DNA of 64,000 bases, from assembly GCF_016065055.1 (NCBI RefSeq), contig NZ_CP065856.1, positions 1 to 64,000 of the forward strand, read 5' to 3'. The stretch comes from Halosimplex litoreum (GTDB lineage Archaea > Halobacteriota > Halobacteria > Halobacteriales > Haloarculaceae). Within the stretch, counting starts at the first letter, position 1; each line of letters begins with the position of its first letter. Below, piece by piece: positions 4,065 to 22,472 of the stretch. Below the pieces are notes generated by a model that worked only from the letters and a program-made list of their open reading frames with translations, had not been told where the DNA came from and searched no databases. The translations under genes were made by a program, and so were the position numbers.

Positions 4065-4559
4065 GCCGAAATCGGCGAAGAGCTCGTCAGCGTCCGTCGA
4101 ATCGCGATCGGTGACGACCGCCGCAGTATCACGTACTTTACCGCGGACGACTGCTGGTAGCTGTGTCTGCGGAGCGACCTGACCCGGAACGCGGGGCTGA
4201 ACCCCTTCTTCGGCAACGAGCGACTGAGCGTTTCCTCCCAGCAGACTCACGACGGGACAGAGGTCGGAGAGTTCCGATTTACCGTCGGCGTCTCCGTGTT
4301 GGGGTCCGTCACGCGGACCATCGTCGGCAACCACAGCGTGTTCGTGCCCACCGACCCGCTCGGTCTCGACGTGTTCAGCGAGGTCGAAACGTCGATTCGA
4401 GCGGTGCTGGAGGATTTCGGGGAGTGGGCGAGGTCGAAGGGTGGCGCGGACCTCTTACGCGACGCTGGCGTGAACCACGTGAAGACGGTCGCTCACCGAG
4501 GCCTCGTTGCACTCGGCCTCGCTCGCGCTGCGACTTTCCTGGTTCGAATCCCTCCGTGA
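4065..4559 (+). pseudogene. Remnant of a haloarchaeal conserved protein with an in-frame TAG
   Basis: One frame reads as a conserved protein across a stop. It begins after a TAA at 4059-4061 with no usable start, reads AEIGEELVSV and ITYFTADDCW, hits TAG at 4158-4160, then continues LCLRSDLTRNAG, TEVGEFRFTV and FVPTDPLGLDVFSEVE to a TGA at 4557-4559. It resembles, from memory, a haloarchaeal family with a 'YFTxDDxxQLYLRxDL' signature (DUF7522-like), in which the stop replaces a Gln, so a CAG to TAG change would explain it. The start is missing and the 3' end runs into the tRNA-Trp trailer repeat. Probably a dead gene. Confidence 0.45.
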
Positions 4560-4624
4560 CGTCCGTCGCGCCTCACGGCTGGCGAGCACACGAGGTGCTC
4601 GCCGGGTAGTTCGGCGCGGAAGTA
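4500..4624 (-). repeat. tRNA-trailer repeat unit behind tRNA-Trp
   Basis: Read on the minus strand directly after the tRNA-Trp 3' end. It has a perfect 9-bp hairpin (GGCGAGCAC at 4581-4589, GTGCTCGCC at 4595-4603), then GGGATTCGAACC (4552-4541), AGGAAAGTCGCAG (4540-4528) and a GAGCGAGG-rich tract. The same core follows tRNA-Lys (two copies) and tRNA-Val in this window. GGGATTCGAACC is the reverse complement of a T-arm. The distal end is eroded and no clear copy of the Trp 3' end can be placed. Confidence 0.6.
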
Positions 4625-4801
4625 TGGGGTCGGAGGGATTTGAACCCCCGATCGACTGATATCTCCGGTAGCGCCTCGGAACTCCAGAGGGTCATCACAG
4701 GGTCGGTGATCAGCCGACCCGTTCAGTATATCAGCTGGAGTGTCGTCCCGGGCGCCGTTGCCTCTGGAGTCAGTCGCCATGCCGGACTTGGCCACGACCC
4801 C
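4625..4801 (-). tRNA. tRNA-Trp (CCA) with a 103-nt intron
   Basis: Acceptor strands GGGGTCG (4801-4795) and CGACCCC (4632-4626) pair, with A73 at 4625. The 5' exon (4764-4801) ends in the loop CTCCAG with anticodon CCA. The 3' exon (4625-4660) resumes with A38 and the TCAGT stem, then the T-arm GGGGGTTCAAATCCC. The intron, 4661-4763, sits between positions 37 and 38, the usual archaeal site, and is as long as the Haloferax volcanii tRNA-Trp intron. It holds a box C-like GTGATGA (4698-4692) and three box D-like CTGA motifs (4734-4731, 4726-4723, 4713-4710), consistent with the known box C/D guide function of this intron for 2'-O-methylation of the tRNA itself. The boxes are in permuted order, which suits a circularised intron. 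Confidence 0.92.
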
Positions 4802-4864: not shown

Positions 4865-5095
4865 TCAGTCGTCGTCTTCGATCTCCGCCCAGTCGCACTC
4901 CTGGCACTTGTAGCCGGTGACGAAGGAGGTGACGCCGGGCATGTAGCCGACTTTCAGGACGTTCTCGCCGCAGTCGGGACAGTCCCGGTCGGCGTCTTCG
5001 ATGGGTTCGGCGTCCATGACCGACTCGCCCTCTATCAGCTCGGCCAGGCGTTTGGGCGTGACCATCCGCCCCTGCACGACGCGATTGTCTGCCAT
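4865..5095 (-). CDS. Small zinc-ribbon protein (DUF5795-like)
   Basis: 76 residues. The start MADNRVVQGRMVTPKRL is chosen because upstream in-frame sequence is GC-rich non-coding repeat. Two CxxC knuckles (CPDCGENVL and CQECDWAE) about 25 residues apart form a probable zinc ribbon in the C-terminal half; the N-terminal half (LAELIEGESVMDAEPIEDAD) is conserved in a haloarchaeal family I remember as DUF5795. Function unknown; a nucleic-acid or protein adaptor role is only inference. Confidence 0.8.
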   Translation of the reverse strand: MADNRVVQGRMVTPKRLAELIEGESVMDAEPIEDADRDCPDCGENVLKVGYMPGVTSFVTGYKCQECDWAEIEDDD

Positions 5096-18964: not shown

Positions 18965-19038
18965 GGGTTCGTGGTCTAGTTGGTTATGACGCGGCCTTTA
19001 CAAGGCCGAGACCGGTGGTTCAAATCCGCCCGAACCCA
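18965..19038 (+). tRNA. tRNA-Val (UAC)
   Basis: 74 nt: acceptor GGGTTCG pairs with CGAACCC, discriminator A at 19038; D-arm GTCTAGTTGGTTATGAC; anticodon stem CGGCC/GGCCG with loop TTTACAA, giving anticodon UAC (Val); T-arm GGTGGTTCAAATCCGCC. No intron. The last 16 nt recur at 19152-19167. Confidence 0.95.
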
Positions 19039-19167
19039 CTGTCCTGTCGCGAACGACTCCGTGAGCGACAGGACCGTTCGTGAGGGCGATTTGAACCAGG
19101 GCAGTCGCAGCGGCCGAGCGAAGCGAGTCCGACCGCCAGCCCGAGGTTCATAATCCGCCCGAACCCA
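19039..19167 (+). repeat. tRNA-trailer repeat unit behind tRNA-Val, ending in a copy of the tRNA 3' end
   Basis: It opens with a perfect 10-bp hairpin (GTCCTGTCGC 19041-19050, GCGACAGGAC 19065-19074) that could terminate or process the tRNA transcript. Then come GATTTGAACCAGG and CAGTCGCAG (19088-19110), a CGAGCGAAGCGAG tract, and at 19143-19167 a degenerate copy of the tRNA-Val 3' end, whose last 16 bp (19152-19167) are identical to 19023-19038. The unit looks like a small insert flanked by attachment-site-like direct repeats. Confidence 0.75.
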
Positions 19168-22046: not shown

Positions 22047-22173
22047 ACGGGCCGGATGGGATTTGAACTACGCCCAGACGTGCTCGCTTCGCTGCGCGCG
22101 ACTGGTCGACTTCGAATCCCTTTCGTGACGCACGGCAGGTGCTCGCGAATTGCGAGCGTCAGAGTGAACCGAC
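22047..22173 (-). repeat. tRNA-trailer repeat unit 2 behind tRNA-Lys, ending in a tRNA-Lys 3' copy
   Basis: Second tandem unit downstream of tRNA-Lys, read on the minus strand. A hairpin (GCTCGC 22142-22147, GCGAGC 22153-22158) precedes the core GGGATTCGAAG (22120 downward), ACCAGTCGCG and a CAGCGAAGCGAG tract. At 22047-22068 lies a copy of the tRNA-Lys 3' end that matches 22294-22315 at 21 of 22 positions. Confidence 0.75.
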
Positions 22174-22294
22174 CGGAAAGGATTTGAACCACCGAAAGAC
22201 GCTCGCCTCGCTACGCCCGGCGACTGCGACTTTCCTGATTCAAATCCCGCCGTCCGATTCGCTCGACGGTTCGCGTTGCTCACCGTCTTACTGT
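22174..22294 (-). repeat. tRNA-trailer repeat unit 1 behind tRNA-Lys, ending in a tRNA-Lys 3' copy
   Basis: First unit after the tRNA-Lys 3' end. The core reads GGGATTTGAATC (22248 downward), AGGAAAGTCGCAG and a GTAGCGAGGCGAGC tract, nearly identical to the units behind tRNA-Trp and tRNA-Val. It ends with CCGGAAAGGATTTGAAC (22174-22190 on the + strand), matching the tRNA-Lys 3' end (22299-22315) at 16 of 17 positions. Confidence 0.75.
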
Positions 22295-22369
22295 ACGGGC
22301 CGGAAGGGATTTGAACCCCTGACCGTCTGATTAAGAGTCAGACGCTCTGCCGGACTGAGCTACCGGCCC
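22295..22369 (-). tRNA. tRNA-Lys (CUU)
   Basis: Minus strand: acceptor GGGCCGG (22369-22363) pairs with CCGGCCC, discriminator G at 22295. D-arm TAGCTCAGTCCGGCAGAGC, anticodon stem TCTGA/TCAGA with loop CTCTTAA (anticodon CUU), T-arm CAGGGGTTCAAATCCCTTC. No intron. Two tandem trailer units follow it. Confidence 0.95.
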
Positions 22370-22472
22370 ACGAATTCGACTTACGCAGGTTGATTGAAAT
22401 ACGTTACTGTTCGGGTATCGGGGGAACCGAACAAGGGGGAATTATATGCGTCGTCGCCTTTGAGGTGACACT

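Follow-up and report, generated by a model that had tools for sequence, protein, structure and literature searches.

Integrons and CALIN are the closest described systems to the arrays reported here: palindromic sites stand head to tail, a site is kept in pairing more than in sequence and carries strand-specific motifs, exchange at a fixed point shuffles the cassettes, and arrays without a nearby integrase exist. A folded single strand is also used by the CTX phage, whose attP(+) serves as a folded single-strand integration site for XerC/D. REP/BIME and PATE/MITE elements are short palindromic repeats without coding capacity, whose movement probably depends on functions supplied in trans. An archaeal integron survey names Asgardarchaeota, Thermoproteota, Nanoarchaeota and Hadarchaeota, and the word Halobacteria is absent from its text (PMC9668308). 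Finally, tRNA-targeted integrative elements and proviruses with archaeal tyrosine integrases (SNJ2 type, T-loop type) leave the tRNA intact and produce a direct repeat of its 3' end of 22 or 13-14 nt, as in a Haloquadratum provirus with a 22-nt tRNA duplication (PMC3119063) and an SNJ2-type element of Halovivax with a 13-bp att (PMC8371274).

The window analysed here, the first 64 kb of a 4.16-Mb contig of Halosimplex litoreum carrying 45 tRNAs, holds arrays with the grammar tRNA - (S hairpin - inverted T-arm I - C hairpin - direct tail D)n. They share with integrons and CALIN the head-to-tail palindromic sites, the shuffling of S and C into mosaics, the conservation of pairing over sequence and the strand-specific motifs; they differ in that the R-box RYYYAAC / GTTRRRY with cleavage G|TT is not found (the arms read GTTCRAA, with C and not R at position 4), in that the cassettes, at 75-130 bp, are gene-free with no room for genes while integron cassettes carry a promoterless gene, and in that we saw neither attI nor, beside the arrays, intI. 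Moreover, their arms follow the tRNA T-arm and not R/L boxes, the docking site is a tRNA gene, and they occur haloarchaea-wide. Unlike tRNA-targeted integrative elements, the units are short, lack an integrase of their own, carry an inverted T-arm copy and form tandem arrays. Unlike REP/BIME they are not dispersed genome-wide, and unlike MITEs or IS200-IS605 PATEs they have no fixed terminal sequences, since I and D change from one host tRNA to the next. With CTX attP(+) they would share a folded single strand that rebuilds a double-stranded recombinase site, although that is a single viral site at dif and there are many sites at tRNAs here. Altogether, the arrays look like a previously undescribed equivalent of integron cassette arrays that is free of genes and docks at tRNA ends; we found no description of such tRNA-trailing hairpin arrays in the open-licence literature, and their novelty is provisional.

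Anatomy of the units in the window

The host genes tRNA-Val and tRNA-Lys were called by ARAGORN and tRNA-Trp by Rfam (Table 1). A sequence-only reading of this DNA had reported two consecutive units behind tRNA-Lys and one behind tRNA-Val, each ending in a copy of the local tRNA 3' end, and all three are present (22295-22173 and 22172-22048 for Lys, 19039-19167 for Val). The unit claimed behind tRNA-Trp stands in part: its inverted arm and core are there (4556-4476), while its tail has decayed and offers no good terminal copy. That reading had overlooked that the GGGATTYGAA motif of the unit body is the reverse complement of the tRNA T-arm, which makes each unit a palindrome, or hairpin.

Within a unit, the GC-rich S hairpin comes first, adjoining the tRNA; I is an inverted T-arm of about 10-14 nt; and D, 22 nt long, repeats the tRNA in direct orientation, starting near position 52 and reaching the discriminator. 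I, C and D combine into a single large palindrome whose arms track the host tRNA. A second, shorter unit (type B) measures about 75 bp; its tail is confined to the final 13-14 nt of the tRNA, and it has a spacer, a weaker inverted copy of the acceptor strand and a different hairpin.

Table 1. Coordinates of host tRNAs and unit modules in the window
Feature	Position	Strand	Remarks
tRNA-Lys(CTT), host	22295..22370	-	last 22 nt (22296-22317) = parental tail D1
S hairpin, Lys unit 1	22249..22295	-	GACGGTGAGC..GCGAACCGTC
I (inverted T-arm copy), Lys unit 1	22239..22248	-	GGGATTTGAA
C core hairpin, Lys unit 1	22191..22238	-	AGTCGCAG..GCGTAGCGAGGCGAG..GTCTTTC
D (direct copy of tRNA-Lys 3' end), Lys unit 1	22173..22190	-	17/18, GGTTCAAATCCTTTCCGG
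S hairpin, Lys unit 2	22123..22172	-	GACGCTCGCAATTCGCGAGCACC; similar S at same-genus locus L344
I (inverted T-arm copy), Lys unit 2	22111..22122	-	AAGGGATTCGAA
C core hairpin, Lys unit 2, type A1	22069..22110	-	AGTCGCGCGCAGCGAAGCGAGCACGTCT
D (direct copy of tRNA-Lys 3' end), Lys unit 2	22048..22068	-	20/21, GTTCAAATCCCATCCGGCCCG
tRNA-Val(TAC), host	18965..19039	+	ARAGORN
S hairpin, Val unit	19039..19084	+	TGTCGCGAACGACTCCGTGAGCGACA, tandem G.A mismatches
I (inverted T-arm), Val unit	19085..19097	+	GGCGATTTGAACC
C core hairpin, Val unit	19098..19144	+	
D (tRNA-Val 3' end copy)	19145..19167	+	16 terminal bases identical; one base inserted in T-arm
tRNA-Trp, intron-bearing, host	4625..4801	-	Rfam
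I (inverted T-arm), Trp unit	4541..4556	-	CGGAGGGATTCGAACC
C core + decayed D, Trp unit	4462..4540	-	decayed D = GGTTCACGCC

One nested hairpin, GGCGAGCACCTCGTGTGCTCGCC, lies within the S module behind three different tRNAs (the 4556-4624 region of the window, L026 and L021), a picture that resembles the insertion of one hairpin into the tip of another.

Occurrence along the genome and across haloarchaea

In order to survey the whole Halosimplex litoreum contig, the last 30 nt of each tRNA were searched for within 500 bp of that tRNA (score of at least 12). An own-tail copy was found downstream at 20 of the 45 tRNAs and upstream at 2 of the 45, and at loci with a copy the own tail was normally the best of all 45 tails; these upstream and swapped-tail controls rule out a random repeat or chance tail matches. 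A covariance model built from the four units gave 24 matches over the 4.16 Mb, of which almost every one lies behind a tRNA, on its strand and no more than 400 bp away. Two weak matches have no tRNA. Another match, at 917344, was displaced by an integrative element: it sits about 9 kb from its tRNA (908081-908154), and the intervening DNA has a tyrosine-integrase gene (PF00589) and a tRNA-tail copy at its end (locus L055). This region of about 9 kb (908081-917400; L011, L055) is integrated in the tRNA gene (GGGCCAATAGCT...), and its terminal gene encodes a 336-aa tyrosine integrase; the integration pushed the hairpin unit of the tRNA away, and CTCAGTTTC stands behind both the tRNA and the distal D.

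The genome surveys drew on tRNA neighbourhoods. The commonest core, A1, was defined by the pattern AGTCGCGCGCAGCGA N0-18 GAGCACGTCT, which undercounts other core types. Of the 392 genomes sampled from the order, 153 carry A1, and it is present in 53 of 95 genera; read backwards, the pattern occurs in none of the genomes listed. At least 120 stretches of the GTDB collection match A1 and, among the matches listed, all are haloarchaeal except for one contig binned as Bacteroidetes. On that contig (PXTT01000074.1), assigned to a Bacteroidetes MAG, the A1 unit lies behind a tRNA-Val; presumably the contig is haloarchaeal and misbinned.

Upstream sequence was long enough to place 105 A1 cores; 94 of them follow a same-strand tRNA at a distance of no more than 400 bp, and these tRNAs represent 29 anticodon types. 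Most of the 11 others are directly preceded by a tRNA-tail copy followed by S, and such outlying arrays were probably moved away from their tRNA by an integrated element; an integrase gene (PF00589) was confirmed beside the array of one of them (L073), and another (L141) is 506 bp from the tRNA as part of a longer array. A core-independent survey of three further haloarchaea recovered a tail copy downstream at 24 of 59 tRNAs and upstream at none, while outgroup tRNAs from other classes of the phylum displayed tail copies at 0 of 57.

Each unit could in principle be a passive remnant, left by an integrative element whose genes were deleted, as the tail copies are classical attR footprints and several of these tRNAs do carry integrated elements. 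This we find scarcely credible: separate deletion events would not have produced one S-I-C-D grammar with conserved cores across 53 genera, and I-C is absent from the integrative-element ends in the sampled loci, so that the own att sites of the elements are built differently.

Viral carriage was also considered, and rejected: the A1 pattern has no match in 2.9 million viral contigs, and phage records gave only tail-like matches of 20 nt. Two plasmid records were retrieved, with an array behind tRNA-Val and a core inside tRNA-Cys, the latter on a Haloarcula plasmid and located exactly between GTCGG and TTCGAATCCGAC (GG|TTCGAAT). On the Haloarcula halophila plasmid NZ_CP119561.1 (L238, 847-3982), about 22 tRNA genes lie directly upstream of a gene encoding a TROVE-domain (Ro60-like) protein, with a further tRNA-Gly beyond it; ARAGORN makes no call for the tRNA-Cys, which is split in its T-arm by an A1-like core module.

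Tracking of the local tRNA and pairing as DNA

After merging, the set comprised 208 distinct type-A units from 286 tRNAs. The claim that one element type sits behind different tRNAs in the same strand extends to 33 anticodon types, and the distal end follows the neighbouring tRNA as had been proposed, with a full 22/22 score in 108 of the 208 units. In the survey of A1 cores, the mean match over the distal 22 nt is 20/22, and the last 10 nt of D match the local tRNA at 8.66/10 versus 3.47/10 for other isotypes. Neither a random placement with respect to tRNA genes nor a fixed distal end, the two outcomes named beforehand as refuting, appeared in the data; the earlier observation is confirmed as real and is much larger than first described. 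At the tRNA-Lys(ctt) locus of related species, D copies the tail variant of the species itself (CTTTCG, CTCCCG or CTCTCA). I keeps pace as well: it mirrors the T-loop of its tRNA in 111 of 120 cases overall, and in 19 of the 22 with a rare variant (TTCAACT, TTCAATT, TTCGATT and others). The inner-stem pairs of A1 cores are Watson-Crick at 84%, with several pair types, versus 45% after reassignment of the partners.

The outer (acceptor) half of I is often non-complementary to D, which counts against a folded-site model. A dumbbell, or a full foldback of the whole 22-nt tail, was discarded, because as a rule only the T-arm half of I is complementary. Heterologous tails seem rare in arrays although cores are common to different tRNAs, a combination that a simple circle-insertion model does not predict. 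Copying from the mature tRNA via RNA was also rejected: the units end without the added CCA, which makes copying at the DNA level more likely.

Stem mismatches distinguish the two nucleic acids. G.T and A.C mismatches number 14 and 15 in S, 16 and 15 in I+C+D, and 9 and 7 in type B, while the acceptor stems of the tRNAs at the same loci, used as control, have 80 G.T versus 5 A.C; this near equality in the units indicates that pairing is kept as DNA and not as RNA. The result bears directly on the proposal that transcription behind the tRNA turns the units into functional RNA hairpins, with roles in processing, termination or as decoys for RNase Z or other tRNA enzymes. The same-strand orientation in nearly all cases, the stable predicted folds (z of -3.6 and -4.2) and the tandem G.A hairpins on the sense strand would fit structured trailer RNAs. 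Still, we regard them as improbable, given that the stems display no preference for G.U over A.C, that the hairpin motifs of type B sit on the other strand, that the presence of units varies between close relatives and can be zero, and that no Rfam family matches the units. RNA trailer structure as the main constraint is ruled out by the wobble test with its tRNA positive control.

The tandem G.A hairpin is found in the S modules of 118 of the 208 units, as compared with 3.2 in shuffled sequences and 7 on the opposite strand. In C, GCGNAGC, an unusually stable DNA mini-hairpin, occurs 224 times versus 2 in the reverse sense, the A1 copies among these not being independent. Strand-specific motifs without a wobble preference point to folded single-stranded DNA.

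Turnover, module exchange and a possible mechanism

The tRNA-Lys(ttt) locus was compared across 30 Halorubrum species. Its arrays contain 0-6 units and keep the order (S-I-C-D)n, with about six S types and about five C types combined almost freely. Species whose upstream flanks are about 91-93% identical carry entirely different arrays, which are S x C mosaics. An identical S1 and I precedes three unrelated cores, the switch falling exactly at TTCGAA, after GATTCGAA, in the T-loop; on the D side, junctions fall before GGTTCGAATC. At the tRNA-Lys locus of the window, two relatives of the same genus (93-94% identical in tRNA and upstream sequence) have no complete unit, while a third (89% identical) carries two. 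Comparison of these sequences establishes a fast gain and loss of units, a free combination of S and C, and junctions within the T-loop. Some unit losses end inside S and not at D, as expected of ordinary deletion.

The idea of a single miniature element of about 125 bp with a fixed body does not survive these observations: the body is made of modules, S and C combine independently of each other, I tracks the local tRNA too, junctions lie inside the T-loop, and a second unit type of about 75 bp exists. The earlier interpretation is thus partly supported. Miniature transposons of an ordinary kind (MITE or IS200/IS605-like PATE) that strongly favour tRNA 3' ends and duplicate 22 bp of their target would account for units that are short, gene-free, hairpin-bearing, repeated in the genome and flanked by a direct repeat of the target, and PATEs do occur in haloarchaea (PMC3119063). 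Such an origin is nevertheless very improbable in our view, because the inverted arms track each tRNA instead of being fixed terminal repeats, S and C segregate independently, and almost no copies exist off tRNA ends save displaced ones. In addition, IS200/IS605 relatives are not known to duplicate their target.

The strongest rival is template switching with gene conversion, in which the palindromes would be born from replication without a dedicated recombinase. The polymerase would copy the tRNA end back and forth by template switching or slippage at hairpins, intrastrand correction would keep the arms complementary, gene conversion in the polyploid cell would spread the tails, and recombination between incoming and resident arrays would shuffle the modules. 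Equal numbers of G.T and A.C mismatches with near-perfect compensation fit template-switch correction, the tandem identical units of 111 bp and 109 bp that occur resemble the outcome of slippage or unequal exchange, and losses ending inside S agree with it as well. On this account, however, the conservation of cores order-wide behind at least 29 anticodon types, the T-loop breakpoints, the two tail lengths matching integrase footprints and the absence from other archaeal classes are left unexplained; repeated copying of the tRNA end, as the sequence-only reading had alternatively suggested, likewise leaves the order-wide conserved cores without explanation. We consider replication unlikely as the source of the arrays, though a serious contender, and these processes may act too, above all for tandem identical units.

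Most economically, the arrays would be gene-free hairpin cassettes docked at tRNA 3' ends and rearranged by site-specific recombination at the T-loop, a reading to which we give roughly an even chance. Cassettes would be inserted, lost and swapped through this recombination, and we infer that catalysis would be provided in trans by tyrosine recombinases, for example by the integrases of elements using the same tRNA ends. The lengths of the unit tails (22 and 13-14 nt) equal the published footprints of haloarchaeal integrases. Against this reading count the absence of any integrase or other recombinase gene from the arrays and the lack of I-C at the ends of the integrative elements in the sampled loci. 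More tentatively, falling somewhat short of an even chance, the arrays would constitute an order-wide integron-like system working on folded single strands, in which the inverted T-arm copy and the direct copy rebuild the T-arm att site of the tRNA and gene-free cassettes are docked, stacked and swapped. A single strand would fold so that I pairs with D into a double-stranded T-arm site matching the tRNA, like a folded attC. On insertion, the previous tail would move downstream and become D, and the new tRNA 3' end would come from the cassette, with the consequence that only matching cassettes would survive. Type B may reflect the same process for integrases cutting nearer to the 3' end, with a footprint of 13-14 nt. 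Within this cassette model, the recombinase, the single-stranded step and any benefit of the array to the host are the least secure elements.

If the cassette model holds, tRNA genes across an archaeal order would be docking stations for modular, rapidly rearranging, gene-free DNA, with the requirement that the docked element match the host tRNA. This would be a second natural design, beside integrons, of recombination via hairpin sites conserved in structure, and would open a direct route to understanding how tRNA-end integrases pick their targets and tolerate change in tRNA sequence. The arrays may be integrase parasites or landing pads made by the host to shield tRNA genes; they would serve as a fast strain marker and could explain odd partial tRNAs in annotation. 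Even with an origin in replication errors, palindromes tracking 33 tRNA types would fit no described repeat class that we found in the open-licence literature.

Two further loci display unusual arrangements. In L311, from a Halorubrum genome (G281), two identical tRNA-Asp genes lie about 100 bp apart and only the second is followed by an array. In L096, where we found no intact tRNA, several identical 111-bp units stand in a row behind a tRNA-His tail copy, with tail copies at 5015, 5126, 5237 and 5348.
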